From Acidimicrobiia bacterium (GTDB lineage: Bacteria > Acidobacteriota > Terriglobia > Bryobacterales > Bryobacteraceae): a stretch of DNA of 64,000 nt. The notes under the pieces are model-generated. The model worked only from the letters and a program-made list of their open reading frames with translations, had not been told where the DNA came from and ran no database searches. The stretch spans positions 1 to 64,000 of the forward strand of contig VFZE01000028.1 in the NCBI GenBank assembly GCA_016871315.1, given 5' to 3'. Shown here piece by piece: positions 18,158-64,000 of the stretch. A program made the position numbers and the translations under genes. Each line of letters begins with the position of its first letter. Position 1 is the stretch's first letter.

Positions 18158-18478
18158 CTAAGGCCGCATCGACAGCGACCGCATCGCGTCCGGCACCACC
18201 ACGAACATCATCAGGATACAGAACACCGTCATCGGAAACAGGGTCACCGCCAGGGAGAACTTCTCGAACTTCATGTGCATGAAATAGGCGATGATCATCG
18301 CCGCCTTGATCGTCGACAGCCCGATCAACACCACCAACATAATCAGAAGCGGCGTTTGCAGATAGGCCAGTAGCACCTCGATCAGCGTCAAGGCAAGCAG
18401 CCCGATCCACACCATGAGAAACAGCTTGGTCGTCGCCCCCTCGGGAGCATGTTGTTCCGTGTGTCCGTGTGCGCTCAT
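18158..18478 (-). CDS. Cytochrome c oxidase subunit IV family protein
   Basis: A 106-residue membrane protein with a His-rich N terminus (SAHGHTEQH) and three predicted membrane helices (about 20-40, 45-65 and 75-100). The middle helix holds the family-typical K-A-A-M-I-I-A-Y-F-M-H-M-K pattern of prokaryotic subunit IV (CyoD/CtaF-like). The ATG at 18478 is preferred to an upstream in-frame one because it has a GGAGG ribosome site and leaves an 11-bp gap to the subunit III gene. It stabilises the oxidase rather than taking part in catalysis. Confidence 0.9.
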   Translation of the reverse strand: MSAHGHTEQHAPEGATTKLFLMVWIGLLALTLIEVLLAYLQTPLLIMLVVLIGLSTIKAAMIIAYFMHMKFEKFSLAVTLFPMTVFCILMMFVVVPDAMRSLSMRP

Positions 18479-18489
18479 CTTGCCTCCTC

Positions 18490-19116
18490 TTACATCTTCA
18501 CCGACATCAAATAAATCAGCGGGAATACGAACATCCACACCAGATCGACAAAGTGCCAGTAGAGGCCGCTGACCTCCACATCCTCATAGGTGAACTTGCC
18601 CCGGCCCACGCCCGCCGCGATGATCCCCAGATAAATCACCCCGATCGTCACGTGCGTCATGTGCAATCCGGTGATGCCGAAGAATGTCGCCCCGAACAGC
18701 GGCTCGCCCCACGGATTCGAGAACGGCGTCACCTTCTCATCACGGATCAGGTGCATCCACTCCATCATGTGGAGAATCACGAACGCCGAACCGAACACCA
18801 TCGTCGCCAGAATCCACTTCACCGTCTTGCCTCGGTCCCCATGGCTCATCGAATGCACCGCCATCACCATCGTCAAGCTCGAACTCAGCAGCACCAGCGT
18901 CATCACCGTCGAAAAGATGATGCTTGGTGAAAATGCGAACGGCGTCGGCCACGTCGCGGTCGACATGCGCAGGTACGTATATGCCACCAGCAGTGCAGTG
19001 AATGTCAGCATGTCCGACACAATGAACAGCCACATGCCGAACTTCTTCGAGCCGATCGCGTAGGGCGAACCACCGCCCGACCATAACGAGGTTGCCGTCT
19101 TGGCGTCAGATGCCAT
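18490..19116 (-). CDS. ctaE: Cytochrome c oxidase subunit III
   Basis: A 208-residue integral membrane protein with five predicted helices. It carries the subunit III features FGMWLFIVSDMLTF near the start, FVILHMMEW in the middle and GLHMTHVTIG plus SGLYWHFVDLVWMFVFPL at the C terminus. It is the short (five-helix) bacterial form. It sits 6 bp after a second, divergent subunit III-type gene. Both lie in the oxidase operon, so the complex may contain two III-like subunits or one long subunit split in two. Confidence 0.93.
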   Translation of the reverse strand: MASDAKTATSLWSGGGSPYAIGSKKFGMWLFIVSDMLTFTALLVAYTYLRMSTATWPTPFAFSPSIIFSTVMTLVLLSSSLTMVMAVHSMSHGDRGKTVKWILATMVFGSAFVILHMMEWMHLIRDEKVTPFSNPWGEPLFGATFFGITGLHMTHVTIGVIYLGIIAAGVGRGKFTYEDVEVSGLYWHFVDLVWMFVFPLIYLMSVKM

Positions 19117-19122
19117 CTTTCA

Positions 19123-19740
19123 TTACCCCCAGAACTGGAACAGCAGAATCAGATAAATCCACAACCCGGCCAGAAAATGCCAGTACAGCCGGCTCACTTC
19201 CACCGCCGTGCGCTTGCCCGGGCCCAGCCGCAGCCGCAGCGCCTGGTACTCGATATAGAGCAGCGCCACTACGCCTCCCACGACGTGCACCGCGTGCGCC
19301 ACCGTGAACAGATAGAAGAACGACCCGCCGGGACTCGTCGATACGTAAACCCCCTGCGCCAGCAGCTGCCGCCAGGCAGCTGTTTGGCCGCCGAGAAACA
19401 GCAGGCCCAGCATCGTTCCCGCTGTCCACCACACCGTGAATCGCTCGCGCTCGCCTTCCAACAGCCTCCGCCGCGCGATCTCTAAAGCAACCGAACTGAG
19501 TGCGATCAAGGCGCTCGATACCCACAAAATGCCCGGCACGGGAATCCCGGACCAGTCATCGCCCAGCCCACGCCGCACAACCAGCGCCGAGGTGAACGCC
19601 GCAAACAGCATTGTGATCGCCGCGAACAGGACATACATTCCCGTCAGCGACGCACGCCGCTGCTTGCCTGGATCCGGACCCCAGCCGCCTTCTTGCACGG
19701 GCGGCGGAGGAGTCCCTTTGATGGTCTGGCTCGTCGTCAT
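19123..19740 (-). CDS. Second cytochrome c oxidase subunit III-type protein
   Basis: A 205-residue membrane protein of the same family as its neighbour but clearly divergent. It has a proline-rich N terminus (TPPPPVQEGGWGPDP), five predicted helices and the C-terminal signature VSRLYWHFLAGLWIYLILLFQFWG. AHAVHVVGGVVAL matches the conserved GLHxxHV helix of subunit III. It starts 4 bp after the subunit I stop codon. Paired III-type genes like this occur in several oxidase operons; why two are kept is not known. Confidence 0.88.
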   Translation of the reverse strand: MTTSQTIKGTPPPPVQEGGWGPDPGKQRRASLTGMYVLFAAITMLFAAFTSALVVRRGLGDDWSGIPVPGILWVSSALIALSSVALEIARRRLLEGERERFTVWWTAGTMLGLLFLGGQTAAWRQLLAQGVYVSTSPGGSFFYLFTVAHAVHVVGGVVALLYIEYQALRLRLGPGKRTAVEVSRLYWHFLAGLWIYLILLFQFWG

Positions 19741-19744
19741 TCTT

Positions 19745-21496
19745 CTACGCCGGGTCCACCTGCATCACGTGATCCTTTTCCTTGCCCGGCACCGCGTACT
19801 CGTATGGCCCGTGCTGCACCGTCAAGTGCTTCCCGCCGAAATTGTCAAACGGCGGTGGCGACGGGATGGACCATTCCAGCGAGGTCGCCTCCCACGGATT
19901 GTCCGGCGCCTTGGCGCCCTTCTTCATGCTCCAGAACAGGTTGATCACGAACAGCACCTGCACCACCGCCGTGAAGATCGCCGCGTGCGTCATGAACGTG
20001 TGCACGTTCAGCAGCTGCCCCATGAACTCGAACGTCTTGTAATCGGCGTAGCGCCGCGGATTGCCCACGATGCCCAGCACGTGCATCGGCGTGAAGATCG
20101 CGTACACCCCAATAAAGGTCAGGTAGAAGTGAATCTTGCCCAGCGTCTCGTTCATCATCCGCCCGAACATCTTCGGAAACCAGAAGAACGTCCCGGAGAA
20201 CATGCCGAAGATCGCCGCCACGCCCATGATCATGTGGAAATGGCCGACCACGAAGTAGGTGTCGTGCAGGTACAGATCCAGTCCCGGCTGACCCAGGAAG
20301 ATCCCGCTGATGCCGCCGCTCACGAACAGGCTCACAAAGCCCAACGCGAACAGCATCGCCGTCGTCAGCCGGATCTGCGCTCCCCACAGCGTGCCCACCC
20401 AGTTGAACGTCTTGATCGCGCTCGGCACCCCGATCGCCATCGTCATGATCGAAAACGCGATCGAAGTATACGGGTTCATCCCGCTGATGAACATGTGATG
20501 GCCCCACACCACGAAGCCCAGGAACCCGATCGCGAGAATCGCGTAGACCATCGCCTTGTAACCGAAAATCGGCTTCCGCGCGAAGACCGACAACACGTTC
20601 GACGCCAGGCCCATGCCAGGCAGAATCGCGATATACACCTCCGGGTGCCCGAAGAACCAGAACAGGTGCTGCCACAGCAACGGCGACCCGCCCCGGTGGT
20701 CCAGAATCTGATCGTTCACCACCAGCCCCGCCGGCAGGAAGAAGCTCGAACCAGCCGTCCGGTCCATCAGCAGCAGTATGCCCGCCGACAGCAGCACCGC
20801 GAATCCCAGCAGGCTCAGAATCGCTGTCACGAACCAGGCCCAGCAAGTCAGCGGCATCCGCATCAGCGTCATGCCCGGCACCCGCAGGTCTATCGTCGTC
20901 GCAATGAAGTTGATCGCGCCCATCAGCGACGCGCCGCAGAACAGCGCGATCGAGAGGATCCACAAGTTCATTCCCATTCCCTGACCCGGCCCCGCGCTCT
21001 CACCCAGCGCGCTCAGCGGCGCATAGGCCGTCCAGCCGCCCAGCGGTGCGCCGCCTTCCACAAAAAACGCCGCGCACATCACCAGCAACGCCAGAAACGT
21101 CGTCCAGAAACTCAGCATGTTCAGCACCGGAAACGCCATGTCCTCGGCGCCAATCTGTATGGGCAGGAAGAAATTCCCGAATCCGGCCTGCGGAGCTGTC
21201 GTCAACACGAAGAACACCATGATTGTCCCGTGCATCGTCATCAGCGAAAGGTACAGCTCCGGCGTCATCACCCCGCCCGGCGCTCCCACCGGCCACAGCG
21301 ACTCAAACCAGCTCACCTTCGCGTCCGGATACGTCATGTGGAAACGCATCAGCACCGAAAGGAACATCCCCAGGAAAACGGAGAACAGCGCCAGAAAATA
21401 GTACTGCTTGCCGATCACCTTGTGGTCCAGCGAAAAGACGTACTTCCGGATGAATCCGCTCGGCGGCGTATGTACGTGTGTTGCGTGCGATGCCAT
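19745..21496 (-). CDS. ctaD: Cytochrome c oxidase subunit I (heme-copper oxidase, A1 type)
   Basis: A 583-residue catalytic subunit with twelve predicted helices holding heme a, heme a3 and CuB. Seen in order: the heme a ligand in MTMHGTIMVFF, the CuB ligand and D-channel Glu in FWFFGHPEVYIAILPG, the His pair in VWGHHMF and the heme ligands in YFVVGHFHMIM. The Glu in GHPEVY marks the proton-pumping A1 subfamily. The ATG at 21496 has a GAGG ribosome site; an upstream ATG would overlap the subunit II gene. It reduces O2 to water with electrons from subunit II. Confidence 0.96.
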   Translation of the reverse strand: MASHATHVHTPPSGFIRKYVFSLDHKVIGKQYYFLALFSVFLGMFLSVLMRFHMTYPDAKVSWFESLWPVGAPGGVMTPELYLSLMTMHGTIMVFFVLTTAPQAGFGNFFLPIQIGAEDMAFPVLNMLSFWTTFLALLVMCAAFFVEGGAPLGGWTAYAPLSALGESAGPGQGMGMNLWILSIALFCGASLMGAINFIATTIDLRVPGMTLMRMPLTCWAWFVTAILSLLGFAVLLSAGILLLMDRTAGSSFFLPAGLVVNDQILDHRGGSPLLWQHLFWFFGHPEVYIAILPGMGLASNVLSVFARKPIFGYKAMVYAILAIGFLGFVVWGHHMFISGMNPYTSIAFSIMTMAIGVPSAIKTFNWVGTLWGAQIRLTTAMLFALGFVSLFVSGGISGIFLGQPGLDLYLHDTYFVVGHFHMIMGVAAIFGMFSGTFFWFPKMFGRMMNETLGKIHFYLTFIGVYAIFTPMHVLGIVGNPRRYADYKTFEFMGQLLNVHTFMTHAAIFTAVVQVLFVINLFWSMKKGAKAPDNPWEATSLEWSIPSPPPFDNFGGKHLTVQHGPYEYAVPGKEKDHVMQVDPA

Positions 21497-21510
21497 GTTT
21501 TCCTCTTCCC

Positions 21511-22305
21511 CTATTGCGCCTTCAATTTCGCGTCTTCTTCCTGCAGCCACTTCTCAAAATCGGCAGGCTCCATCACCTCAAGCTCCGCCCGCATCTGGTG
21601 ATGCCCCAGACCGCACAGCTCCGAACAGGCCACATCATATTTCCCCACTTTATCGGCCTGGAAATGCAGCGGAATCACCATCCCCGGCACCATGTCCTGC
21701 TTCACCCGCAGTTCCCGCACAAAGAAGTTGTGAATCACGTCCCGGCTCCGCAGGATCAGCCGCACCGGCTTGCCCTTCGGAACCCGGATATTGGAGTTTA
21801 CGACATCGTCCTTGCCCGCCGGGTCCTTCTCATCGATCCCGAACGGGTTTCCCGCCGCGTCGTTGATCTGCTTGATGTCCAGCTTGCCGAACTTCCCGTC
21901 CGCTCCCGCATAGCGGAAGTTGAACAGGAACTGCTTGGCCACCGCCTCGATCTCCACCACCTCGCCTTGCGGAGGGGTCAAGTGCACGCCCGCCCAGATC
22001 CGCGTGCTCAGCAGCACCGCGCCGATAAACAGCACCGCCGCCGCCGAGGTCCAAAGCACTTCCAGCTTGTTGTTGCCGTGCGAATAGGTCGCGCGCCCGC
22101 CGTTGTCGCGGTACTTGAAGATCGTCCACCCCAGCGCAATCTGCGACACAAAGAAGATCGCACCTGTGATGTATAGCGTGGTGGCAAAGTGCTGGTCGTA
22201 TTGGCGCCCGTGTTCGTTGATCGCCTCGGGAAACGTCCAGTAGTCTCCCGCAAACATCCAAACGATCACCACCGTGAACACCCAGATCAGTAGTGCAAGC
22301 AGCAT
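21511..22305 (-). CDS. ctaC: Cytochrome c oxidase subunit II with CuA site
   Basis: A 264-residue protein from the ATG at 22305, which has a GGGAGCGAGA-type ribosome site and lies downstream of the predicted promoter. Hydrophobic segments near residues 1-19, 42-64 and 80-102 anchor it, and the cupredoxin domain lies outside. The binuclear CuA site is complete: His in VIHNFFV and the CSELCGLGHHQM motif (about 227-238). No C-terminal cytochrome c domain is fused, so this is not a caa3-type subunit. It receives electrons from a soluble or bound cytochrome c not found in the operon. Confidence 0.95.
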   Translation of the reverse strand: MLLALLIWVFTVVIVWMFAGDYWTFPEAINEHGRQYDQHFATTLYITGAIFFVSQIALGWTIFKYRDNGGRATYSHGNNKLEVLWTSAAAVLFIGAVLLSTRIWAGVHLTPPQGEVVEIEAVAKQFLFNFRYAGADGKFGKLDIKQINDAAGNPFGIDEKDPAGKDDVVNSNIRVPKGKPVRLILRSRDVIHNFFVRELRVKQDMVPGMVIPLHFQADKVGKYDVACSELCGLGHHQMRAELEVMEPADFEKWLQEEDAKLKAQ

Positions 22306-22363
22306 TCTCGCTCCCTTTCCTCGGCCTCTGAGCCGCGGGACAAAAAAATAACGTGCGAATGAA

Positions 22364-22391
22364 ATTATCACAGTTTCACAGGAAACCGCAA
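22364..22391 (-). promoter_or_regulatory. Candidate promoter of the cytochrome oxidase operon
   Basis: On the minus strand, TTGCGG (22391-22386), a 16-bp spacer and GATAAT (22369-22364) preceded by TG make an extended -10 promoter. It lies in the 96-bp gap between the beta-propeller gene and ctaC, giving a leader of about 50 nt. This argues that the oxidase operon has its own start of transcription. Confidence 0.5.
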
Positions 22392-22401
22392 CCAAAGATT
22401 T

Positions 22402-39361: not shown

Positions 39362-42307
<2,946 letters not shown>

Positions 42308-42310
42308 GAG

Positions 42311-43672
42311 ATGAGGCGTCGGGATTTTCTGGGATCGGTGGCGCTGGCATCGCTGGGGAACAGCCAGTTGTTCGGGGCGGCGGCGAAGGCGAAGCGGATG
42401 ATCTACCTGTTCCAGTCGGGCGCGCCGTCGCAGATCGAGACGTTCGACTACAAGCCGCGGTTGATGGAGTGGCAGGGCGTGGAGCTGCCGGATTCGGTGA
42501 GGCAGGGGCAGCGGCTGACGGGGATGACATCGACGCAATCGAGCTTCCCGGTTGTGCCTTCGAAGTTCGGGTTCGCGCGGCACGGCAAGTCGGGGGCGTG
42601 GGTGTCGGAGCTGCTGCCGCACACGGCGAAGGTGGCGGACGAGCTGTGCTTCATCAAGACGCTGCACACCGAAGCGATCAACCATGACCCGGCGATCACG
42701 TTTTTCCAGACGGGGTTTCAATTGGCGGGGCGGCCGTCGATCGGGGCATGGCTGAGCTACGGGCTGGGGAGCGAGAACAAGGATCTGCCGGCCTACGTGG
42801 TGATGGTGAGCCAGGGAAGCGGGAACAAAGGGGACCAGCCGCTGTACGACCGGCTGTGGGGAAGCGGGTTCCTGCCGAGCAAGCATCAGGGAGTGAAGCT
42901 GCGGTCGGTGGGCGATCCGGTGCTGCACCTGTCGAACCCGCCTGGGTTTGAGACGGCGGACCGGCGTCAGTTCATCGATGATCTGAAGCAGCTGAACCAG
43001 ATGAAGCTGGAAGAGACGGGCGATCAGGAGATCGCGACGCGGATCGCGCAGTATGAGATGGCGTTCCGGATGCAGGCGTCGGTGCCGGAGCTGACGGATT
43101 TGAGCGGGGAGCCGGAGTCGACGTTCGCGTTGTATGGGCCGGAGGCGCGCAAGCCGGGCAGCTACGCGGCGAATTGTTTGATGGCGCGGCGGCTGGCCGA
43201 GCGCGGGGTGCGGTTCATTCAACTGTTCCATCGCGGATGGGATCAGCACAATCATTTGCCGGAGCAGATACAAGCGCAGTGCCGGGACACGGATCAGGGG
43301 TCGGCGGCGCTGATCACGGATTTGAAGCAGCGGGGGCTGTTGGAGGACACGCTGGTGGTGTGGGGCGGGGAGTTCGGGCGGACGGTGTACTGTCAGGGGA
43401 AGCTGACGAAGGAGGATTATGGGCGGGACCATCATCCACGATGCTTCACGGTGTGGCTGGCGGGCGGGGGAGTGAAGGCGGGGCAGAGTTATGGCGAGAC
43501 GGACGAGTACTGCTACAACATCGTTTCCAATCCCGTGCACGTGCACGACCTGCACGCGACGTTGTTGCACACTTTGGGCGTAGACCATACGAAGTTGACC
43601 TATAAGTACCAGGGGCGGCACTTCCGGTTGACCGATGTTCACGGAAAACTGGTGAGGGAAGTGGTGAGTTAG
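42311..43672 (+). CDS. Tat-exported DUF1501 protein
   Basis: A 453-residue DUF1501 protein (sulfatase/alkaline-phosphatase-like fold). It has a twin-arginine start ([16 protein letters not shown]), then [42 protein letters not shown] and [17 protein letters not shown], the conserved His/Asp/Glu clusters of the family. It is nearly always encoded beside a DUF1549/DUF1553 protein, as here (3-bp gap), so the two probably act together in the periplasm. Enzymatic activity is unproven. The last 4 bp overlap the convergent gene. Confidence 0.92.
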
Positions 43673-53120: not shown

Positions 53121-55400
53121 ATGGCTAAAGACGTCATCCTGGCCGCTGATCTCGGCGGCACGCCATTATCTTCGGAGGAGCTGGCGGCGGTTCCCGACTT
53201 CGCCGGCATACGGCCACAAATCTGGGAAAAATTCCCGGGCGCCATTGCGAAGAAAACCTACCGCCCCGGCGAGTACCTGATGAGGGAGGGTGAGAGCGGC
53301 ACCACGGCCTTTTACCTGATGTCCGGTGTGGTGGAAGTCTTCCTCTCGAGCCCCGTCCAGGGCGTTGAGGCCACCAAAGGAGCGGCCAAGCGCGGCTTCT
53401 TCCGCGGCTTCACCAAATTCACCGACTACATCAAGGGCGCCCCGGACTCGAGCGGACAGAAAGCGGCAACACGGACGCACATTCCCATCGATGCCTCGGT
53501 GGATCTGCCGATGTCGAACCCGATCGCCGAACTCAAGGCCGGCGACATGATAGGCGAACTGGCGGCGCTGGCGGCGCTCAAGCAGGAGAGGTTGAAGCGG
53601 CCCAAGTTCTATCCGCGCTCGGCGACCGTGAGGGCAAAGAGCGAAGTGGTGGCATTTGAAATGCTGCCCAATATCCTCAACAATGTTTTGTACAATGCGC
53701 CGGCTTTTAAGAACCAACTGAACGAGAACTACCGCAACCGTGCTCTGGTGACACACCTCCGGTCTGTGCCGGTGCTGGCCGGGTTGACCGTGGAGTTTCT
53801 GGATTCGCTCAAGGATCGCGTGGAGCTGGTGGACGTCCCGCCAGGGGAAGTGATTGTGCGCCAAGGCGACATCGCCGACGCGTTCTATCTCATCCGGCTA
53901 GGCTTCGTGAAGGTCTCGCAGGATTTTCCCGGCGGGGAATTGGTGCTGAACTATCTCTCGCGCGGCAACTATTTCGGTGAGATGGGCCTGCTGCCGCCGG
54001 CCTTCCGCGTGCGCGCCAGTGGCCAGGAGCCCGGCCAAAGCGCGGAAGGAGCCGTTGCCGCGCAGCCGGTCCGTGGGGGCCGCGCGCCGGAGGGCGAGCG
54101 GAAACTCGAGACGCCCTGGGACGAATTCGTTTCGCGCGACCATTTCGAGATGCGGGTGGAGGGCAATCAAGTGCGCGTCATGCGGCTTCCGTCGGGGCGC
54201 AATCGCATTACTTTCCGCATGCGCCCGGCCGATTCGTTTCTCATCTCGCCGGGGGAACAATTCGTCATCGGCAACACGACGTTCGAGGTTCTGGAGGACC
54301 CTCTCCAGGCCGGGCGGCGCACGGCCACCTGCACGGCGGTGGATTACGTGCAGCTGGTGCGGATCAAGGCGGAAGATTTCACGCTCATGCTGGAGCGCCA
54401 TCCGAAAGTCCGGGATTCGATTTCCGAGGTGGCGCGGTCGCGCCGGCAGATGGATGCCGAGATCCTGAACCGGGTGCAAATGGTGCCGCTCAACCGCTTC
54501 CTGGAGCAGGAGTTGATGCAGGGACAGAACCTGCTGCTGATCGATCTGGAGCGATGCACGCGGTGCGACGAATGCGTCAAGGGCTGCGTGGCCACGCATG
54601 AGGACAACGTCACTCGCCTGATCCGGGACGGCCTGCGCTTTGACAAGTACCTGGTGCCCACCAGTTGCCGCGCCTGCATGGATCCGCTCTGCATGACGCG
54701 GTGCCCGGTGGGCTCGATCCGGCGCAAGGAAACGCTGGACATAGTCATCGAGGACTGGTGCATCGGCTGCTCCAACTGCGCCGCCGATTGCCCTTACGGC
54801 AATATCAACGTGACGATGATTCCCGTGCCGGGCTCGGGCACGGGGAAAAAGGCGGAGTACAAGCCGAAGGCGGTGGTTTGCGATCTGTGCGTGGACTACG
54901 CGGAACCCAACTGCGTCCGAGCCTGCCCGCACGACGCCGCCATACGGGTGGAGCCGAAGAGCTTCTTCGCGCGCGATCTGGCCGGAACGCAGCTGGCCGT
55001 CGCGGTGGATCAGCCGAAGCAGAAGGCCGCCGCGCCGGCACAGCCCGCCGCTCACGTGGAGACGCAGGTGCTGTCGAATATCGACGAGCTGATGGAGTTG
55101 ATGCCTCGCCTTCGCGGGATGGCCGGCGCGCATGCGGGAAGCATGTTGCAGTTGCGCCATCCGGAGACCAGTTTCGGCCGCGCGCCGGAGGCGGACTACC
55201 GGTTCGCCGAAGATGACCAAGTGTCACGCCTGCACTGCAAAATCGTCAGCGGCAACGGCAAGCATATTCTGCGGGATCCCGGCTCCACCAACGGCACACG
55301 GGTTAATGGCGCGGCAATCACGGAGGCCGAGTTGCGCAACGGCGATATCATCGAGTTCGGATCACAGAAGTTCGAATTCCTGGAGGGCATGCGCGCATGA
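53121..55400 (+). CDS. Fusion of cNMP-binding, FHA and four-cluster ferredoxin domains
   Basis: A 759-residue soluble protein. Residues about 45-185 form a first cyclic-nucleotide-binding domain with a 50-residue insert; a second starts at about 215 and is interrupted after its phosphate-cassette start FGEMGL (285-290). An FHA-like segment (SRDHFEM 338-344, RNRITF 360-365) fills about 330-395, and the cNMP domain resumes at RTATCTAVDY. Four [4Fe-4S] clusters follow, as in HybA/DmsB/PsrB subunits: Cys 479/482/485/489, 516/519/524/528, 547/550/553/557 and 587/590/598/602. A canonical FHA domain ends it (SFGRAPE, VSRLHCKI, STNGTRVNG, 684-755). It likely passes electrons to the membrane protein encoded next, with which it overlaps by 4 nt (ATGA), under cNMP and phosphopeptide control. 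Confidence 0.9.
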   Translation: MAKDVILAADLGGTPLSSEELAAVPDFAGIRPQIWEKFPGAIAKKTYRPGEYLMREGESGTTAFYLMSGVVEVFLSSPVQGVEATKGAAKRGFFRGFTKFTDYIKGAPDSSGQKAATRTHIPIDASVDLPMSNPIAELKAGDMIGELAALAALKQERLKRPKFYPRSATVRAKSEVVAFEMLPNILNNVLYNAPAFKNQLNENYRNRALVTHLRSVPVLAGLTVEFLDSLKDRVELVDVPPGEVIVRQGDIADAFYLIRLGFVKVSQDFPGGELVLNYLSRGNYFGEMGLLPPAFRVRASGQEPGQSAEGAVAAQPVRGGRAPEGERKLETPWDEFVSRDHFEMRVEGNQVRVMRLPSGRNRITFRMRPADSFLISPGEQFVIGNTTFEVLEDPLQAGRRTATCTAVDYVQLVRIKAEDFTLMLERHPKVRDSISEVARSRRQMDAEILNRVQMVPLNRFLEQELMQGQNLLLIDLERCTRCDECVKGCVATHEDNVTRLIRDGLRFDKYLVPTSCRACMDPLCMTRCPVGSIRRKETLDIVIEDWCIGCSNCAADCPYGNINVTMIPVPGSGTGKKAEYKPKAVVCDLCVDYAEPNCVRACPHDAAIRVEPKSFFARDLAGTQLAVAVDQPKQKAAAPAQPAAHVETQVLSNIDELMELMPRLRGMAGAHAGSMLQLRHPETSFGRAPEADYRFAEDDQVSRLHCKIVSGNGKHILRDPGSTNGTRVNGAAITEAELRNGDIIEFGSQKFEFLEGMRA

Positions 55401-56362
55401 TCCTGGCCGACAGCCAACGCTGGATCTTCCCCTGCACGGCCGGGGCGCTGGCGGCGACGGCCTGCTACCTCCTGTATGCGTGGATGTCGCCGAACGGGCC
55501 TAGCGGCGGCTCCATTCCGGGCCTGGTGTTCGGCTTCGCGGGCACGTTGATCATCATTTTCGAGTGCCTGCTGAGCCTGCGGAAAAAGTATCCTGCTTCG
55601 CCGCTCGGCCGCGTCAGCTGGTGGCTGCGCGCGCATGTCTGGCTTGGCCTGCTGAGCTTTCTGCTGATTCTCTTCCACACCGGCTTGCAGTGGGGTGAGG
55701 GGCTGGCGGCGTTGCTGATGTGGCTGTTCGCGATTATCACGGTCAGCGGCATCTTCGGCGTGCTGCTGCAAAACTGGCTGCCGCGCCGCATGATGGAGTT
55801 GGTACGGCGCGAGGCGCTGTATGACCAGATCCCGATGCTTGTCTGGCAATTGCGCCTGGAGGCCGATGAGCGGATGGAGTTCCTGACAGCCGATCTCGGC
55901 ATGCAGGAGGATGAGAAGGAATTCGTGCGCGCCGGCGGCGTGAAGCAGTATTTCGACGAGGCGCAGAAGGCCTCGGCGAGGGAAAAGATTCAGGCCGTCA
56001 TCGACAAGCGGCGCGCCACGCGGCAGATCGACATCGGCGATGCCGCGGCGCAGGCGATGAAGGCGCACTATCTGGAGGAGGTTCGTCCGTTCTTATTCGA
56101 TCCGCCGTCGGCCTACACGAAGAAGCTCTTCGCCACCGGTGACAAGGTGGCCGCCTACTTCAACCATTTGCGCACGATCATGCCGATTCCCGCGCATGAG
56201 GTGCTTGGCGATGTGCAATCGATCTGCGAGGAGCGCCGCCAGTTGGCGCTGCAAGCCACGATGCACCGCTGGCTGCATGGCTGGCTATACGTGCATGTCC
56301 CATTGTCGATGGGATTGCTGGTGCTGACGTTGGTGCACGCGGTGATGTCGCTCAAGTATTGA
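55397..56362 (+). CDS. Diheme cytochrome b-type membrane protein
   Basis: A 321-residue protein with about four to five membrane helices, three or four in the first 130 residues and one at the C terminus. His residues that could bind heme b across the membrane occur in RAHVWLGLLSFLLILFHTG and in MHRWLHGWLYVHVPLSMG, with another in LTLVHAV. The region between (about 140-270) is soluble, charged and helical. This resembles ferric-reductase/cytochrome b561-like anchors and is a plausible quinone-side partner for the ferredoxin fusion before it and the cytochrome after it. Family assignment is uncertain. Overlaps upstream by 4 nt and is 1 bp from the cytochrome gene. Confidence 0.75.
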   Translation: MILADSQRWIFPCTAGALAATACYLLYAWMSPNGPSGGSIPGLVFGFAGTLIIIFECLLSLRKKYPASPLGRVSWWLRAHVWLGLLSFLLILFHTGLQWGEGLAALLMWLFAIITVSGIFGVLLQNWLPRRMMELVRREALYDQIPMLVWQLRLEADERMEFLTADLGMQEDEKEFVRAGGVKQYFDEAQKASAREKIQAVIDKRRATRQIDIGDAAAQAMKAHYLEEVRPFLFDPPSAYTKKLFATGDKVAAYFNHLRTIMPIPAHEVLGDVQSICEERRQLALQATMHRWLHGWLYVHVPLSMGLLVLTLVHAVMSLKY

Positions 56363-56363
56363 T

Positions 56364-57695
56364 ATGTCCAAGGAAGACAAGCCGCTCGAATACGAACGAC
56401 GAATACAGGACACCAAGAGTGTGGCGCAGCGCGTCGACCTGGACTACCTGAAGCGGGGAAACCGGTTTCGCGATCTGCGGCGGAAATTGACCTGGGCCGC
56501 GCCACTGGTGGCGATGATCGGCGTAGCGCCGTTTCTGGCCGGCATCGGCGGCGGCGAAAAGATTTTTTCTAATGGCGCTGTTTCCCGCTCCCATGCGATG
56601 TTTGAGAGCAACTGCCCGGTCTGCCACACCGGCGTTTTCACCTCCGTGGCGGATGCGGCCTGCAAGAACTGCCACGACGGGCCTCCGCATCCGGCCAAGG
56701 CCATCGATACCGGGAAGCCGAATTTCGAGCTGCGCTGTGCGCAGTGCCACCTGGAGCACCAGGGCAGCGCGTTGTTGGCCGAAGTTGCCGACGGCAATTG
56801 CACAGTATGCCACGATAACTTGACGGCCAACGCCGGCAACGTGAAGCTAGCCGCCAACAGCGTCACTGCCTTCCGGGAAGGCAAGCATCCGGAGTTCGCC
56901 GCGCTCAAGCTGAAAGACGGCCGCGCCCTGAAGCTGAATCACGCCGTGCACATGCCCGCTCAACCCAAGACAATCCGCAATATCAAGCTGCCGATGAAGT
57001 GCGGGGACTGCCACACCACGGACCTGAATTCTCCCAAGGGCGATCTGATGCCGGTTAGCTTTGAGCAGCATTGCCGGGAGTGCCACCGGCGGGAACTCGA
57101 GTTTGACGTCTACCAGGCGCTGGGGGCGCAATCGGCGCCCGCGCCGCATACCAAGGACCCGGAGGCGATCCACAACCACATTGTCACGACCTATCAGAAC
57201 GCACTGGCGGCCAACCCGTTTCTGCCGCAGCGGGCTCTGGGGCGCGATTTTCTTCCTTCGGCCAGCCCGGCTGCGTGGCTGGAAAAAGTGGTTCGTGACT
57301 CGGAAACATTCCTATTTGAACGAAAGTGCAAATACTGTCATGAGTACGAAGGATCGCTGGGCGGTTATCCGGTGGTGCAGAAGGTGGCGCCCATTCAGGG
57401 ACGCTTCGCCGGCGCCGGCCAGCCGGGTCTGCCGTGGCTGGTGCGCGGTGAATTCTCGCACCGGGCGCACCGCGCCATGGAGTGCGCTTCCTGTCACACC
57501 GCGGCCGCGGCGAGCAAGACGACCAGCGACGTGCTGATCCCGAAGATGGCCGATTGCGAGCAGTGCCACGGGGACAGCGGCACGCATCTGGACCGCTGCG
57601 CGCAGTGCCACCAGTACCACAACAAGGCGAAAGAGACGGACAAAGACCGGCGGCCGGTGGATCAGTTGATTGGTTACCGGAGGGAGGGCAGCTAG
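56364..57695 (+). CDS. Decaheme-type cytochrome c with N-terminal membrane anchor
   Basis: A 443-residue protein with a basic N-terminal cytoplasmic stretch, one membrane helix (about 41-63, signal-anchor) and ten CxxCH heme motifs outside: CPVCH, CKNCH, CAQCH, CTVCH, CGDCH, CRECH, CKYCH, CASCH, CEQCH and CAQCH. Motifs are spread in two groups separated by a heme-poor stretch (about residues 245-310). It is probably an inner-membrane-anchored periplasmic electron carrier, analogous in place to CymA/NapC or MtrA-type proteins, though not clearly homologous to either. It is 2 bp from the phosphatase gene. Confidence 0.9.
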   Translation: MSKEDKPLEYERRIQDTKSVAQRVDLDYLKRGNRFRDLRRKLTWAAPLVAMIGVAPFLAGIGGGEKIFSNGAVSRSHAMFESNCPVCHTGVFTSVADAACKNCHDGPPHPAKAIDTGKPNFELRCAQCHLEHQGSALLAEVADGNCTVCHDNLTANAGNVKLAANSVTAFREGKHPEFAALKLKDGRALKLNHAVHMPAQPKTIRNIKLPMKCGDCHTTDLNSPKGDLMPVSFEQHCRECHRRELEFDVYQALGAQSAPAPHTKDPEAIHNHIVTTYQNALAANPFLPQRALGRDFLPSASPAAWLEKVVRDSETFLFERKCKYCHEYEGSLGGYPVVQKVAPIQGRFAGAGQPGLPWLVRGEFSHRAHRAMECASCHTAAAASKTTSDVLIPKMADCEQCHGDSGTHLDRCAQCHQYHNKAKETDKDRRPVDQLIGYRREGS

Positions 57696-57697
57696 GG

Positions 57698-58429
57698 ATG
57701 GGGCTCATGTTGGAGTATGCCGGAGATACGCATGTGGGCAACGTGCGCCGGAACAATGAAGACGGTTATGCCATCGAGCCGGAGTTGCATCTTGCTATCG
57801 TCGCCGACGGCATGGGCGGCGCCGCCTGTGGAGAAGTGGCTTCGGAACTGACCATCAGCACGACCGTGGAGATCGTGCGCGATTCCAAGCTGGCGCCGGA
57901 GGAGTTGCTGAAGGAAGCCGTGCGGGAAAGCAATCGCCGGGTCCGTCAAACTTCGGAAGGCCGCCCGGACTGCAAGGGCATGGGCTCCACGGTGGTGATT
58001 GCGTTGTGGCGCGAGGGCCGAATGTGGATCGCCAACGTCGGGGATAGCCGCGCGTATCTATGGCGAGGCGGCCAGATGCGCCAGCTTTCCTACGACCAGA
58101 ACGTGGCCAATGAGCTGCGCAGCAACCTGAAAATGACCGAGGAGCAGATCAGCAAGTATCCTCACCGGAACGTGCTGACGATGGCCATCGGCTCGGCTAG
58201 CGAGGTGATGGTCCGGATCTGTTCGGAGGAACTGGAATCCGGCGACGCGGTCCTGCTTTGCTCGGACGGTCTGTACGGACCGGTAGGCGACCCCGGTCTG
58301 GAGGAGTTGCTGAGTGATTCCCGGCAACTGGAGGCTTGCATCGGCCGGATGATCGCTAAGGCGAACGCCTGTGGAGGTCCGGACAACATTACGGCTGTGC
58401 TTCTGCGGTGGAGGGATAAATCCGCTTGA
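57698..58429 (+). CDS. PP2C-family serine/threonine phosphatase
   Basis: A 243-residue PPM phosphatase from the ATG at 57698, two bases after the cytochrome stop; the open frame extends far upstream only as a shadow. Metal-binding motifs are complete: RRNNEDGY, VADGMGG, CSDGLYG and GPDNITAVLLR. MGSTVVIAL and NVGDSRAYLW are also present. It removes phosphate from Ser/Thr on proteins in the cytoplasm, using Mn2+/Mg2+. Being inside this operon, the FHA fusion or its phospho-partner is a likely target, but no Ser/Thr kinase gene is in the window. Confidence 0.93.
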   Translation: MGLMLEYAGDTHVGNVRRNNEDGYAIEPELHLAIVADGMGGAACGEVASELTISTTVEIVRDSKLAPEELLKEAVRESNRRVRQTSEGRPDCKGMGSTVVIALWREGRMWIANVGDSRAYLWRGGQMRQLSYDQNVANELRSNLKMTEEQISKYPHRNVLTMAIGSASEVMVRICSEELESGDAVLLCSDGLYGPVGDPGLEELLSDSRQLEACIGRMIAKANACGGPDNITAVLLRWRDKSA

Positions 58430-58453
58430 CGACGTTATGCGTACTGCTAGACT
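58426..58453 (+). promoter_or_regulatory. Possible internal promoter before the c554-like gene
   Basis: TTGACG at 58426-58431, overlapping the phosphatase stop codon, and TAGACT at 58448-58453 are spaced by 16 bp in the only gap above 40 bp within the operon. A GGAGGA ribosome site follows before the ATG at 58475. This would let the last three genes be transcribed separately. Confidence 0.35.
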
Positions 58454-58474
58454 GTACAAGAACACGGAGGAATT

Positions 58475-59734
58475 ATGCCGCGATCTATTCGCTCCTTCTG
58501 TACCCTCTGGATTCTCTGGGCGGGGCTTGCCGCCGGGCAGCAGCCGAATTATATAGGCGCCGGAGGTTGCGCCTCATCCAATTGCCATGGCGCCACCAGC
58601 GCCGCGCCGGAAGCCGAAAGCCGCATCCTCGGCAACGAATACTCGATCTGGTCTGTCAGCGACAAGCATTCGCAGGCCTACAAGGTGCTGCTGGAGCCGC
58701 GCTCCAAGCGCATGGCGCAGATCCTCGGTATTGCCGATGCCACCAAGGACAAGAAGTGCACATCCTGCCACGCCGTGGGGTCGCCGGAACGTTCCGTCTC
58801 TGACGGTGTGGCCTGCGAAGGCTGTCACGGTCCTGCGGAGAAATGGCTCGGGCCGCATACGCAGAAGGATTCGCACGCGGCCAGCGTCGCGGCCGGATTG
58901 ATCGACACGAAGAACCTGGTGGTTCGCGCCAAGACGTGCCTGGAATGCCATCTCGGCACCGGCGACAAGATCGTGGATCACGACCTGATCGCGGCCGGGC
59001 ACCCCGATCTTGCGTTTGAACTGGACACGTTCAGCTGGGCGCAGCCCATCCACCATCGAGAGCCGAAGCCTGCGGCGGGCAACACGCTTCCACGCGCGCG
59101 CAACTGGGCGGTGGGGCAGGCGGTGGCTTTCACAGAAGGTATGCGACTGCTGGCCTCGCGCGCCAACCGCCTGTGGCCGGAATTCGCCGAGCTGGAATGC
59201 TACCAGTGCCATCATGATCTGCGTGCCGACAGTTGGCGCATCCAGCGAGGCTATGCGGGACGCCGTCCCGGCTCCCTGCAATTGAACCAGGCGAGGTTTG
59301 ATGTGCTTCGGGTGATGGTGGAGCAGTTGGCTCCGTCGCAATCCGGCGCCGTGAACGGCGCGGTGCAACAAGTGGCGTCCGTTGTCTCGACGCGCCTGGG
59401 CGATGCCGGTGGCGTGGCCTCGGCGGCCATGGCCGCCGCGCGGCAAGGAGACGCGCTGGTGAACGCGATGCTTTCGGCGGACATTACGCAGGAAAAGGCT
59501 CGCGGGATGGTGAAGGCCCTGGTGGGCGACATCGCCCGCATCGCGGGTAACGGCCCGCATTCGGCGGAGCAGGCAACCATGACGCTGGATACGCTGAGCG
59601 CGGCCTATCTCGGCAACCAGCCGGCGGCGCAGCAGGCGATGGCGGAGCTGTACAACTACCTGGAGCATCCCTCGCTGTATCAATCCGGCGAATTCGCGGC
59701 GCTGTTCCGCAAGGTCGCGGCGAAGGTTCAATAA
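58475..59734 (+). CDS. Secreted cytochrome c554-like multiheme protein
   Basis: A 419-residue periplasmic protein with a signal peptide (about 1-21). The first 240 residues resemble cytochrome c554/c-prime, with four standard heme motifs (CTSCH, CEGCH, CLECH, CYQCH) and one atypical C-x4-C-H site, CASSNCH (32-38). Additional His residues (SQAYKV region, HDLIAAGH, IHHRE) could be distal ligands. The last 160 residues are helical and heme-free. It probably carries electrons across the periplasm. GGAGGA ribosome site; 12 bp to the beta-barrel gene. Confidence 0.88.
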   Translation: MPRSIRSFCTLWILWAGLAAGQQPNYIGAGGCASSNCHGATSAAPEAESRILGNEYSIWSVSDKHSQAYKVLLEPRSKRMAQILGIADATKDKKCTSCHAVGSPERSVSDGVACEGCHGPAEKWLGPHTQKDSHAASVAAGLIDTKNLVVRAKTCLECHLGTGDKIVDHDLIAAGHPDLAFELDTFSWAQPIHHREPKPAAGNTLPRARNWAVGQAVAFTEGMRLLASRANRLWPEFAELECYQCHHDLRADSWRIQRGYAGRRPGSLQLNQARFDVLRVMVEQLAPSQSGAVNGAVQQVASVVSTRLGDAGGVASAAMAAARQGDALVNAMLSADITQEKARGMVKALVGDIARIAGNGPHSAEQATMTLDTLSAAYLGNQPAAQQAMAELYNYLEHPSLYQSGEFAALFRKVAAKVQ

Positions 59735-59746
59735 GAGGCCTGATCC

Positions 59747-61840
59747 ATGCGCGCATGGCTGGCCGCCATCCTGATACTGACACCGGCACTGCTGGCGCAG
59801 CGGGCGCAGCTTGGTGTCAAGGGCCGCCAGCAGGAAAGGGTGCGGCCCCGCAAACTGGAGCCGATCCGCAAACTGCCGCGCCGCGGCCCGCCGGGCGTGG
59901 AGCGCATCTACGGGCCCTCCCCGTTGGAGCAGTACCTGGAGAAGCAGCGCGCGGCGCAACCGCCGCCGCTGCCCGTACCGGCCGACCGCACCAGGCGGCT
60001 GGTTCGCCGCACACCGGCGCCGGCGGCCGCGCCCGCGCTTGGGCCGGCGGAGAAGTACGCCTACTTCCCATTGCCGCGCAAAGCGGAAGGCGAGCCCGGG
60101 TTCATCGCCACTCTGCCGCCGGACTTCGCCGTACCGTCTCCTCCCGCCGAAGATCCGTCGATCCCCAACCGCTGGCGCATCGGCCTGCCTCACTGGCGGC
60201 GCTATGAGAACACAAAGCTCGACGCGATCTACACGCGCTCCCGCTGGTGGGATCCGTTCAACCTGAATACACTCAAAGGCGACTATCCGCTGTTCGGCAA
60301 ACGCCACTTCCTGAATTTCACCGGCTCTTCAGACACGTTGGTGGATACGCGCCGCATCCCGGTGCCCAGCGTCGCCAGCGCCGCGCGTCCGGGCGACTTC
60401 GGTTTCTTCGGGCGCGGCGAGCAGATGCTGCTGCGCCAGAGCTTCCGATTGAGCTTCGACCTGTTTGGCGGCAACGCGGGGTTCAAGCCCGTTGACTACG
60501 AGCTGCGCATCACGCCGGAGTTCAACATCAACTATGCAGTGGTCCGTGAGAACGCGCTCACGCGCATCGACGTGCGGGAGGGCAGGCGGCGCACCGACAC
60601 CAACATCGGCATGCAGGAGCTGTTCCTGGAAAAGCGCCTCTTTACGCATTCCACGGCCGCGTTCCGGCCAGGCAAAGATGTGGATGACCGCGGCAGCGCC
60701 TACTTCGATTTCACTTCACTCCGCTTCGGCATCCAGCGCTTCACCTCCGATTTCCGCGGCTTTGTCTACAGCGATGAGCAACCTGGGGCGAGGCTATTCG
60801 GAACCATCAAGAACAACGTCTTTCAGTACAACCTGGCCTTTTTCCGCATGCTGGAGAAGGACACCAACAGCGGCCTGAACCGCTGGCGGCAGCGCAATCA
60901 GAGCGTCTATGCGGCGAATCTTTATTGGAACGACTTTCTCACCCTCGGCTATAACTTCAACTTCAGCCTGTTGTACAACAACGACCAGCCGACGTTCCAC
61001 ATCGATAAGAACGGCTTTCTGGTGCGGCCTGCTCCCATCGGCCTGCCGGCGCCGCACAAGATCCGCGCCGGGTATGCGGGAACCTCCAGCGACGGACATA
61101 TCGGGCGCTACAACTTCGCGCATGCCTTCTACTACGCCTTCGGGCGCGACAACAATCACGGGATTCCCGCGATGAAACAGGCGCAACATATCCGCGCCTT
61201 TCTCGCCGCCGCGGAGCTGAGCTATGAGCGCGACTGGGCCTTCTTCCGTACATCTTTCTTCATGAGCACGGGCGACAACGACGTCAACGACGGCGTGGCG
61301 AAGGGCTTTGATGGCATCGTGCCCAACCAGCAGTTCGCCGGCGGCGGATTCCTGGGGAATCCCGCGCTGGCCGACCGGGGGCTGATCAACAACGTGTTTG
61401 AAGGCGGCGGGACCAATTTCCTGAACCGCCAGTTCATTCCGCTTACCGGGACCGGCGTCACGCTGTTCGGGCTAAACAGCCTGATGCCGACGATGCGCGC
61501 GGGCCTGTTCCAGGGCCAGGCGAACTTCATTAACCCCGGCGTAATGCTTGCCAACGTAGGGATGGACGCCAAGCTGACGCCGAAGCTGCGCTCCACCATC
61601 AACGTGAACTACCTGCGGTTTCACCGCACGGAGGTGCTGGAGGCGGTGCTGTTCCAAAGCGGCATCCGTCACGGCATCGGGCTGGATAGCGGATTCGGTC
61701 TGCAATACCGGCCCAAGCTAAGCGAGAACATCGTCGTGACCGGCGGCTTCGGGCTGTTGTTTCCGCACGCCGGGTTCAAGGATATTTACACCGGCCGGAC
61801 GCAGTTGTCGGGATTCATCAACGTGAGGGTACTGTTCTGA
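59747..61840 (+). CDS. Predicted outer-membrane beta-barrel protein
   Basis: A 697-residue exported protein (signal peptide about 1-17). A basic, proline-rich, probably disordered stretch runs to about 130. The rest is rich in alternating aromatic/polar strands (FRLSFDLFGGNAGF, YNFNFSLLYNN, YNFAHAFYYAFG) and ends GFINVRVLF with a terminal Phe, which fits a large outer-membrane barrel. There is no TonB plug. Flanked by multiheme cytochromes, it is the candidate porin of a porin-cytochrome conduit, comparable in position to MtrB or OmbB but not clearly homologous. Its stop overlaps the next start by 1 nt. Confidence 0.72.
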   Translation: MRAWLAAILILTPALLAQRAQLGVKGRQQERVRPRKLEPIRKLPRRGPPGVERIYGPSPLEQYLEKQRAAQPPPLPVPADRTRRLVRRTPAPAAAPALGPAEKYAYFPLPRKAEGEPGFIATLPPDFAVPSPPAEDPSIPNRWRIGLPHWRRYENTKLDAIYTRSRWWDPFNLNTLKGDYPLFGKRHFLNFTGSSDTLVDTRRIPVPSVASAARPGDFGFFGRGEQMLLRQSFRLSFDLFGGNAGFKPVDYELRITPEFNINYAVVRENALTRIDVREGRRRTDTNIGMQELFLEKRLFTHSTAAFRPGKDVDDRGSAYFDFTSLRFGIQRFTSDFRGFVYSDEQPGARLFGTIKNNVFQYNLAFFRMLEKDTNSGLNRWRQRNQSVYAANLYWNDFLTLGYNFNFSLLYNNDQPTFHIDKNGFLVRPAPIGLPAPHKIRAGYAGTSSDGHIGRYNFAHAFYYAFGRDNNHGIPAMKQAQHIRAFLAAAELSYERDWAFFRTSFFMSTGDNDVNDGVAKGFDGIVPNQQFAGGGFLGNPALADRGLINNVFEGGGTNFLNRQFIPLTGTGVTLFGLNSLMPTMRAGLFQGQANFINPGVMLANVGMDAKLTPKLRSTINVNYLRFHRTEVLEAVLFQSGIRHGIGLDSGFGLQYRPKLSENIVVTGGFGLLFPHAGFKDIYTGRTQLSGFINVRVLF

Positions 61841-64000
61841 TGCGCACCGCGATCTTGGTTGTCGTGCTTGGAATGTCCCCGCTGGGGGCGCAGGATCTGC
61901 TCCGGCAGAGCGCGGAGGCGCAAAAGGGGAAGAGTGCCGGATGCGAATCGGCGAAGTGCCACGTGGGGATTGAGCCGATGCACGTTTCGCCCGCCGTGCG
62001 GCTGGGCTGCACGGATTGTCACGGCGGCAACGCGAACACGGAAGACAAGCTGCAAGGCCACGTTGCGCCACGGAACAAGCGCCTGTGGCCCACGTCAGCG
62101 AATCCGGAGCGGACTTACGCACTGCTCAATCAGGAGTCCACGGAGTTCGTGCGGTTCATCAATCCCGGCGATTTCCGAGCGGCCGAGCAGACGTGCGGCT
62201 CCAGCGGCTGTCACGCCGAGATCGTCTACAAGGCCAAGACCAGCCTGATGACGCACGGGTCGTTCCTGTGGACCGCGGTGCTGTATAACAACGGCGGCTA
62301 TCCGTACAAGAACGGCTTTTTTGGCGAAGCCTATGACAACAAGGGCAGGCCGAGGCAGCTGTTCACTTTCCCCAAGCCGACCACGGAGGAGACGCGGTTA
62401 AAAGGGATCATCGAGCGAATCATGCCGTTGCCGCAGTTTGAAGCGACGCAGCCCGGCAACACACTGCGCGTGTTTGAACGCGGTGATTCGCGGCTTTCCA
62501 ACCGTGGCTTCGGCACGCTGACACGAACCGATCCGGTCTTTCAGGGGATGCAACGCACGCGGTTGCTGGACCCGCTGCTGTCGTTCCTCGGCACAAACGA
62601 TCATCCTGGCGACTACCGCTCCAGCGGCTGCACGGGCTGCCACGTCATCTATGCCAACGATCGCGACGCGGTGCACTCCGGTCCCTATGCGCAGTATGGC
62701 CACCAGGGTCTGAGCTTCACCAAGGACCCGACGATTCCCAAGAAGGAGCGCGGCCATCCGATTCAGCACCGGCTGACACGATCGATTCCCACCTCGCAAT
62801 GCGTCATCTGCCACGTGCATCCAGGCACCAGCTTCGCCAGCCAGTACACCGGCTACATGTGGTGGGACAACGAAACCGACGGCGAGCACATGTATCCGGC
62901 CAAGAGCAAGCAGTGGGACCCGGAAGCGAGGGCACGCAGCCTGGCGCGCAATCCCGAAGCCAGCTCACTGCGCGGCAACTGGAGCGATGTGGAGTTTCTC
63001 AGCAACCTCACCGATCTGAATCCGAAACTGAAGCAGACGCAGTTTGCCGATTACCACGGCCACGGATGGGTTTACCGCGCCGTGTTCAAGCATGACAAGA
63101 AGGGCAACTGGCAGGATAAGGAAGACCGCGTCATCGCTTTCAACGATCCCGAACGGATGAAGAAGGCCGTGCACCTGAAGGATATTCACCTGGAGAAGGG
63201 AATGCACTGCGTGGACTGCCACTTTGAACAGGACGCGCACGGCAACGGGAAGCTCTACAACGAAGCGCGTGCAGCGGTGGAGATCGAGTGCATCGATTGC
63301 CACGGCAGTGCGTCGAAGCGGCCGACGCTGAAGATGTCCGGCCCCGCGGCGCCGAACCCGCCGCATGATCTGACGCTGCTACGCACGCCGTTCGGCGCGC
63401 GGCGCTTTGAATGGCAGGGAGAGAAGCTGATTCAACGCTCGGTGGTGGAGCCGGACAAGCAGTGGGTGGTGTCGCAAGTTTACGATTCCGTTCGGCCGGG
63501 CTCGGAGAACTACAACGAGAAAGCGAGGCTGGCAAAGACGATCCGAAAGGACGGAGCCGTGTGGGGCGATGTCCCGTCGAGCACCGCGGAGCTGGCGCAT
63601 CAGGACGAACGCATGTCCTGCTATACGTGCCACACCTCCTGGATGACCTCCTGCTTCGGCTGCCATCTTTCGATGAAGGCCAACGCCAACCGGCCCTCAC
63701 TGCACTGGGACGGCAAGGGGGACACGCGCAACTTCACTACGTACAACTACCAGGTGCTGCGCGACGACGTTTTCATGATGGGCATCGACAGCACGGTGAA
63801 GGGCCACCGCATCGCGCCGGTGCGCAGCTCGAGCGCGGTGCTGGTGAGTTCGCAGAACCAGAACCGCGAGTGGCTCTATTCGCAGCAGCAGACGATTTCG
63901 AGCGAAGGCTACAGCGGGCAGGCGATGAACCCTCACTTTCCGCATACCGTGCGGACGCGTGAAACGCGCACCTGCACGGACTGCCACGTGTCGAAAGACA
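61840..64000 (+). CDS. Large multiheme cytochrome c, cut by window end
   Basis: A secreted protein beginning at ATG 61840 (signal peptide to about residue 17) and still open at the window end after 720 codons. Ten heme sites are visible so far: CESAKCH (35-41) and CGSSGCH (119-125), both with four residues between the cysteines, and CTDCH (57-61), CTGCH, CVICH, CVDCH, CIDCH, CYTCH, CFGCH and CTDCH. Between hemes lie long unassigned stretches. No lipobox. It could be the terminal or outer cytochrome of the conduit, or an enzyme. True length and heme count are unknown. Confidence 0.9.
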   Translation, partial: MRTAILVVVLGMSPLGAQDLLRQSAEAQKGKSAGCESAKCHVGIEPMHVSPAVRLGCTDCHGGNANTEDKLQGHVAPRNKRLWPTSANPERTYALLNQESTEFVRFINPGDFRAAEQTCGSSGCHAEIVYKAKTSLMTHGSFLWTAVLYNNGGYPYKNGFFGEAYDNKGRPRQLFTFPKPTTEETRLKGIIERIMPLPQFEATQPGNTLRVFERGDSRLSNRGFGTLTRTDPVFQGMQRTRLLDPLLSFLGTNDHPGDYRSSGCTGCHVIYANDRDAVHSGPYAQYGHQGLSFTKDPTIPKKERGHPIQHRLTRSIPTSQCVICHVHPGTSFASQYTGYMWWDNETDGEHMYPAKSKQWDPEARARSLARNPEASSLRGNWSDVEFLSNLTDLNPKLKQTQFADYHGHGWVYRAVFKHDKKGNWQDKEDRVIAFNDPERMKKAVHLKDIHLEKGMHCVDCHFEQDAHGNGKLYNEARAAVEIECIDCHGSASKRPTLKMSGPAAPNPPHDLTLLRTPFGARRFEWQGEKLIQRSVVEPDKQWVVSQVYDSVRPGSENYNEKARLAKTIRKDGAVWGDVPSSTAELAHQDERMSCYTCHTSWMTSCFGCHLSMKANANRPSLHWDGKGDTRNFTTYNYQVLRDDVFMMGIDSTVKGHRIAPVRSSSAVLVSSQNQNREWLYSQQQTISSEGYSGQAMNPHFPHTVRTRETRTCTDCHVSKD

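Follow-up and report, generated by a model that had tools for sequence, protein, structure and literature searches.

Gene content and extent of the locus

Seven packed genes follow one another on the + strand from position 53121 of the window, by which we mean the whole analysed stretch of 64,000 nucleotides (contig C28 of genome G000). Neighbouring genes overlap by up to 4 bases or are separated by up to 45, with ATG 57698 taken as the start of the PP2C gene. The genes, and the parts of the first one, are as follows.

53121..55400, + strand: cytoplasmic protein of 759 amino acids with two cNMP-binding domains, a four-[4Fe-4S] region and a C-terminal FHA domain (Pfam; invariant Cys)
54018..54311, + strand: FHA-like insert within the second cNMP domain, splitting its phosphate-binding cassette (weak: PF16697, E 0.007, under the curated cut-off)
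54555..54929, + strand: four-[4Fe-4S] region, HycB-like (profile matches; Cys pattern)
55119..55379, + strand: C-terminal FHA domain (PF00498, E 1e-18)
55397..56362, + strand: integral membrane protein, probable diheme cytochrome b (four invariant His; five hydrophobic segments)
56364..57695, + strand: decaheme c-type cytochrome with one N-terminal membrane anchor (10 CXXCH; hydrophobic segment 45-63; PF14522, PF14537)
57698..58429, + strand: PP2C-type Ser/Thr phosphatase (PF13672, E 2.5e-18; NF033484, 223.7 bits, just under the cut-off of 230)
58475..59734, + strand: secreted pentaheme c554-like cytochrome with 4 CXXCH and 1 CX4CH (PF13435; profile match to 1bvb)
59747..61840, + strand: putative outer-membrane beta-barrel (signal-like N-terminus, no heme motif, C-terminal F/Y in relatives)
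61840..64000, continuing to 65370 (L009:1840-5370), + strand: decaheme cytochrome with 8 CXXCH and 2 CX4CH and a C-terminal LVIVD propeller (motif count, Pfam)

A sequence-only reading had already placed these seven genes here with at least 25 heme sites. Both claims were borne out: all genes lie on the + strand, the parts it listed agree with the Pfam and motif scans, and the heme sites number 25, namely 22 CXXCH and 3 CX4CH. The anchored decaheme, the c554-like protein and the large cytochrome hold 10, 4 and 8 CXXCH and 0, 1 and 2 CX4CH, respectively.

The operon extends past the window, because the gene of the large cytochrome stops at 65370, beyond 64000. A gene for an HbpS-like secreted protein follows directly at its 3' side with no gap (L009:5371-7011). 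At the other end 72 bases separate the Fe-S gene from an upstream HDOD gene on the same strand; in loci L090, L093 and L094 the region upstream of the Fe-S gene gave no HDOD match.

Inspection by eye of the surroundings yielded three further observations. Genes on the - strand at 18158-22395 of the window resemble a cytochrome c oxidase operon, judged from the translation starts only, which suggests an aerobic host; the host is probably an aerobic soil acidobacterium. The + strand at 39362-43672 encodes a large protein with a CXXCH close to its N-terminus and, in the next gene, one with a twin-arginine-like start; we take the pair to resemble the DUF1549/DUF1501-type pairs known from Planctomycetota. 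About 4 kb beyond the operon, on the - strand, lies what is likely a gene for catalase-peroxidase (KatG; L009:11176-13386).

The cytoplasmic Fe-S protein

By Pfam the product of the first gene has two cNMP stretches and Fer4 domains, and ends in an FHA domain. In an alignment of 24 such proteins, which left out the partial L073 and the later found L093-L095, all 24 contain cNMP and Fer4 domains and the 16 cluster-ligand Cys are invariant, while a pyridine-nucleotide oxidoreductase is fused to six of them. The profile of the four-[4Fe-4S] region matches HycB3/HycB4 of HDCR and formate hydrogenlyase subunit 2.

By sequence, the window protein carries two intact candidate cyclic-nucleotide cassettes with the phosphate-binding Glu and Arg in place. 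Across the family the Gly-Glu of the first cassette is kept in 24/24 and its Arg in 15/24 (it differs in 9/24); the corresponding values for the second cassette are 20/24 for Glu and 12/24 for Arg.

The insert in the second cassette was found by similarity in four genomes of one family, the window's included, and GR and SR-x-H motifs are kept in all four. PF16697 matched the insert of L094 with an E of 0.0016, under the curated cut-off like the match in the window protein, and PF00498 did not match the insert. Its fold model (pLDDT 39.1) was too poor for a fold search. Because of the Pfam scores below cut-off and the poor model we call the insert FHA-like only.

The diheme membrane protein and the anchored decaheme

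His 80, 94, 300 and 314 of the second gene product are invariant in 17/17 aligned sequences and form two pairs, each 14 residues apart, in two of its five hydrophobic segments. Two H-x13-H pairs also occur in 8/8 further relatives outside the alignment, three of which are Fe-S fusions. This conservation supports the earlier assignment of the protein as diheme, and the pairs would fit two b hemes, one near each membrane face. No Pfam family matched over cut-off, neither of the NrfD type nor of the ferric-reductase type, and a profile search of the PDB returned no membrane protein (best E 0.26), i.e. no solved structure similar by sequence.

The third gene product matches the cytochrome c7/c3 families of Pfam. 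In L063, L065 and L066 a membrane helix stands on either side of a decaheme and both ends of the protein match FHA; these are Pfam matches in L063 and weak matches to the window FHA domain of 20-22 bits in L065 and L066. The N-terminus of the L012 decaheme, considered an FHA domain by eye, gave no FHA match and was rejected.

The outer cytochromes and the putative barrel

The c554-like protein has four CXXCH and one CX4CH in 16/16 aligned sequences, a count that leaves out weaker 4- and 8-heme relatives in L075, L086, L088 and L089. Its profile matches cytochrome c554 (1bvb) with an E of 2.7e-8. For the large cytochrome the sum of CXXCH and CX4CH was 10 in 28/28 complete frames, the window's included; 28 of 29 sequences entered the count, which left out the broken frame of L084, and 20 of 29 the alignment. 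Because these totals are conserved across relatives, we count CX4CH as heme sites. A crude lipobox pattern was absent from the large cytochrome of the window; in the c554-like protein the pattern did match, but the Cys concerned belongs to the CX4CH heme motif.

Between these two cytochromes lies the gene of the putative barrel. The protein has a signal-like N-terminus and no heme motif, and its C-terminal residue is F or Y in 24/24 complete aligned sequences. Contig ends truncate the other two of the alignment, which took 26 of 28 and omitted L026 and L074 as partial or broken. A homologue at L070:14404-16764 carries four CXXCH hemes fused at its N-terminus. The putative barrel matched no Pfam family at all and no PDB profile, and hhalign against the MtrB profile gave a probability of 1.4%, i.e. 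no similarity. An AlphaFold model from four sequences reached a pLDDT of 30.5 and was too poor for a fold search. Strand alternation was weak with z of 1.5 and 1.8, compared to 6.1 and 7.0 for an MtrB alignment; an earlier alternation test found 27 windows versus 18.1 in shuffles at one threshold, and a z of only 0.9 for the single sequence. An outer-membrane beta-barrel is a plausible, not a proved, assignment for the sixth gene; a non-membrane fold, which would have spoken against the sequence-only reading, did not emerge either. Paralogous clusters at L086 and L088 combine the same inner genes (cNMP-Fe-S protein, cytochrome b and decaheme) with another barrel-like protein, which ends in F, is encoded between multiheme cytochromes and has no Pfam match.

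Association of the two modules across genomes

The cNMP/four-[4Fe-4S] protein, the diheme b protein and the anchored decaheme constitute an inner module, which in related Acidobacteriota-type genomes, and in one contig labelled Proteobacteria, co-occurs with an outer module of the pentaheme c554-like protein, the putative barrel, the decaheme-LVIVD protein and the HbpS-like protein. Among 247 genomes of the phylum the Fe-S protein was found in 17 (at least 100 bits) and the outer cytochrome in 26 (at least 450 bits), with both in 13 (Fisher p 1.3e-11). In twelve of the remaining 13 genomes that have the outer cytochrome, the Fe-S match reaches only 51-66 bits, and in G296, where the cytochrome frame is broken, it is weaker still. 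Three of these twelve (L069, L070 and L092) read as cNMP-Fe-S-cytochrome b fusions with a weak or absent first cNMP match.

In L063-L066 inner and outer modules stand side by side, and the c554 gene adjoins them in L064 and L065. Beyond the phylum sample one scan of genome contigs was conducted, which gave three loci. A contig labelled Proteobacteria (L012) has the same set plus PP2C, an FHA-like gene and a GltD-type fusion; the parts are reshuffled there, with 26-47% identity in the best segments, as they are across the phylum sample.

Paralogous inner modules of cNMP-Fe-S protein, cytochrome b and decaheme were also seen without an ExtM-like partner beside them (L062, L075, L085-L089). They adjoin other multiheme and barrel-like genes, and L086 also has a receiver-kinase fusion and a histidine kinase.

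NAD(P)H flavoproteins

None of the nine proteins scanned in and beside the window set was recognised as an NAD(P)H flavoprotein. Relatives have several kinds: a GltD-type flavoprotein fused to the Fe-S protein, a Pyr_redox + FHA + Fer2 gene in the cluster (Pfam-checked in L062 and L086), a NuoEF-type flavoprotein (by Pfam in L054 and L055, by similarity in L095 and L096), an FNR-type flavoprotein (L089) and an NDH-2 with its own cNMP domain. The latter accompanies the Fe-S gene in L094 and L096 and the outer module in L056.

L056:2360-3994, L094:14680-16323 and L096:8403-10043: type II NADH dehydrogenase with a C-terminal cNMP domain

Elsewhere in the genome of the window, C25:44917-46494 of G000 matches the NDH-2-cNMP protein by similarity over residues 25-547 of 548. 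The distance between such a match and a class III cyclase is about 1.4-2 kb in G039 and G280. An NDH-2-cNMP match was close to the module in 3/21 genomes, based on the 14 strongest of 28 matches, some of which (G001, G131, G037:C196) may be without the cNMP part; the weaker ones cover the NDH-2 part only. The fused or adjacent NAD(P)H flavoproteins of many relatives point to the electron source.

Signalling genes near the module

Nucleotide cyclases were searched in the 32 genomes found with the outer cytochrome or the barrel; the proximity analysis was first run on 21 of them. The 32 genomes contain 69 class III cyclases (PF00211), and in six at least one lies no more than 10 kb from the module, while 0.41 was expected (p 4e-6). 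Without G014, which had been noticed before the test, the result was 5/31 (p 3e-5), and with one genome per family 4/17 with 0.21 expected (p 4e-5). A flank of 5 kb gave 4/32 (p 2e-4); with the 21 genomes p was 0.011, 5.5e-5 and 1.5e-5 for flanks of 2, 5 and 20 kb. Module spans were taken from a crude ORF picker with provisional starts; for G225 and G183 they follow the match alone. The six near cyclases comprise three with CHASE2, one FHA-GAF-cyclase, one kinase-cyclase beside the c554 gene and a sixth in G294. The other 26/32 module genomes, G000 among them, have no cyclase within 10 kb.

PP2C is encoded inside the module in 5/32 genomes (0.22 expected) and absent from it in 27/32. Four of the five belong to one family; with one genome per family the result was 2/17 (p 0.0055). 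A PP2C of G021, missed by the ORF picker, was found by the PP2C search. Ser/Thr kinases adjoin the module in L071, L094, L062, L086 and L011, and kinases are common generally.

The sequence-only reading had regarded the locus as an operon which moves electrons to or from the outside under control of second messenger and phosphorylation. These data uphold it in part: the electron-transfer and signalling parts belong together, as they recur in relatives, and class III cyclases are near the module more often than expected by chance.

Proposed mechanism and alternatives

From the sequences we take the parts, their heme and cluster ligands, the conserved association and the cyclase enrichment. On this basis we lean, with modest confidence, towards a trans-envelope electron conduit with a signalling-gated cytoplasmic entry, for which we infer route, direction, outer-membrane crossing and gating as follows. 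Electrons of NAD(P)H would enter through a flavoprotein, which is fused or adjacent in many relatives and here perhaps encoded elsewhere in the genome, and pass to the four [4Fe-4S] clusters of the cNMP/FHA protein. From there they would cross the inner membrane via two b hemes to the anchored decaheme, proceed to the secreted pentaheme, and traverse the outer membrane by way of the barrel and the decaheme-LVIVD protein to an acceptor outside. Two inputs may gate the entry. A cyclic nucleotide on the two cNMP domains could open or close access to the Fe-S clusters, and FHA domains could do so by docking on phosphothreonines, which a Ser/Thr kinase would add and the PP2C of the operon would take off again.

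The same genes might instead encode a cell-envelope reductase for a soluble oxyanion of nitrogen, sulfur or selenium, where the barrel admits the substrate and the decaheme-LVIVD protein is the enzyme. All 20 scanned outer cytochromes weakly match ExtM of a selenite/tellurite operon, but the window's protein is far off the curated ExtM cut-off with 87 of 800 bits. Three of the 20 match the model of a pentaheme nitrite reductase subunit, yet the CXXCK motif is absent from all 20. The profile match to octaheme nitrite reductase (E 2.4e-5) has a best stretch of only about 43 residues. The profile match of the fifth gene, c554, comes from ammonia oxidation. A likeness also exists to what has been proposed for the Geobacter ext cluster, where the paper describes that deletion of ExtI affects selenite and not Fe(III) reduction (PMC5877670). 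On balance we consider an oxyanion reductase unlikely.

Flow could also run the other way, with the same chain taking electrons from a donor outside the cell to NAD(P)+. In principle the flavoprotein types can work in both directions, and PioAB is an inward porin-cytochrome system, but the uphill transfer to NAD(P)+ needs an energy input and no proton-pumping part was recognised in the set; we regard electron uptake as distinctly improbable. Still a little less probable in our estimate is that the Fe-S/cNMP/FHA protein is a redox sensor instead of a gate and reports the state of the envelope to kinases and cyclases. The same gene association, with CHASE2 and FHA-GAF cyclases and kinases nearby, would be compatible with this, and HbpS-like proteins are known heme or redox sensors. 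On the other hand, 25 hemes and the NAD(P)H flavoproteins of relatives would seem to exceed the needs of a sensor.

If the conduit with gated entry is real, respiration to the outside would be switched directly by cell signalling, and it would add a candidate electron-export route for a probably aerobic soil acidobacterium. Provided that the entry protein binds cyclic nucleotides and phosphopeptides, electron exit could open or close within seconds, and such direct control of respiration would be testable in the purified complex. To our knowledge, most descriptions of how extracellular respiration is controlled concern transcription or RNA. More tentatively, and with some doubt, we suggest a widespread undescribed class of NAD(P)H-to-surface wire in which messengers and reversible phosphorylation might gate the electron carriers themselves, including decahemes with a cytoplasmic FHA domain on either side and an FHA-like domain nested in a nucleotide cassette of the entry protein.

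Comparison with known systems

A four-cluster ferredoxin, a membrane subunit and a periplasmic multiheme protein are also the components of transmembrane redox complexes of the Hmc/Qrc/Dsr type. In contrast to these, the membrane protein here has no NrfD-type match, and signalling domains and putative outer-membrane partners are added. NADPH oxidases and ferric reductases share the two membrane His pairs 14 residues apart and the NAD(P)H flavoproteins inside, but here there is no Pfam ferric-reductase match and Fe-S clusters stand in between.

Like the porin-cytochrome conduits OmbB-OmaB-OmcB and MtrCAB/PioAB, the locus encodes a putative barrel between multiheme cytochromes; those adjoining it are secreted, a pentaheme and a decaheme, and have conserved heme numbers. 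Unlike in MtrCAB/PioAB, the putative barrel is by profile unrelated to MtrB. PF11854, the MtrB/PioB barrel family, had 0 matches in G000, while 29/119 phylum genomes have one. MtrCAB has already been reported in Acidobacteria, in the passage concerned with no inner-membrane quinone oxidoreductase nearby (PMC8805035), as have other porin-cytochrome clusters (PMC7399161).

The outer cytochrome is distantly ExtM-like, and the Geobacter ext cluster (extHIJKLMNOPQS) is described as grouping a porin with several multiheme cytochromes and a b-type cytochrome (PMC5877670), an arrangement which the locus, with its putative barrel and probable cytochrome b, would share. The ext cluster as described there includes a Rieske protein and a bc-type cytochrome b (PMC5877670), whereas the present one has the cNMP/four-[4Fe-4S] protein and another membrane protein; no Rieske or bc-type cytochrome b Pfam match was obtained among the nine proteins scanned. 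The term LVIVD is absent from the main text of the ext-cluster paper (PMC5877670). The locus would work like a porin-cytochrome system, but since it has no MtrB match, its outer cytochrome scores under the ExtM cut-off and the barrel is putative, we do not file it as an MtrB-type or ext member.

Word searches of open papers found none that joins FHA domain, multiheme cytochrome and cyclic nucleotide, none that joins cyclic nucleotide-binding with porin-cytochrome, and none that joins multiheme cytochrome, protein kinase, extracellular electron transfer and second messenger. The nearest parallel in control known to us, cGAMP in Geobacter, acts via riboswitches on RNA, whereas here the candidate binding domains are on the redox protein itself. 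Common to both would be that a second messenger controls extracellular respiration, as described for metal respiration in Geobacter (PMC6456294). The system is best read as a new variant of the porin-cytochrome-like conduits, with signalling built into its inner-membrane entry.
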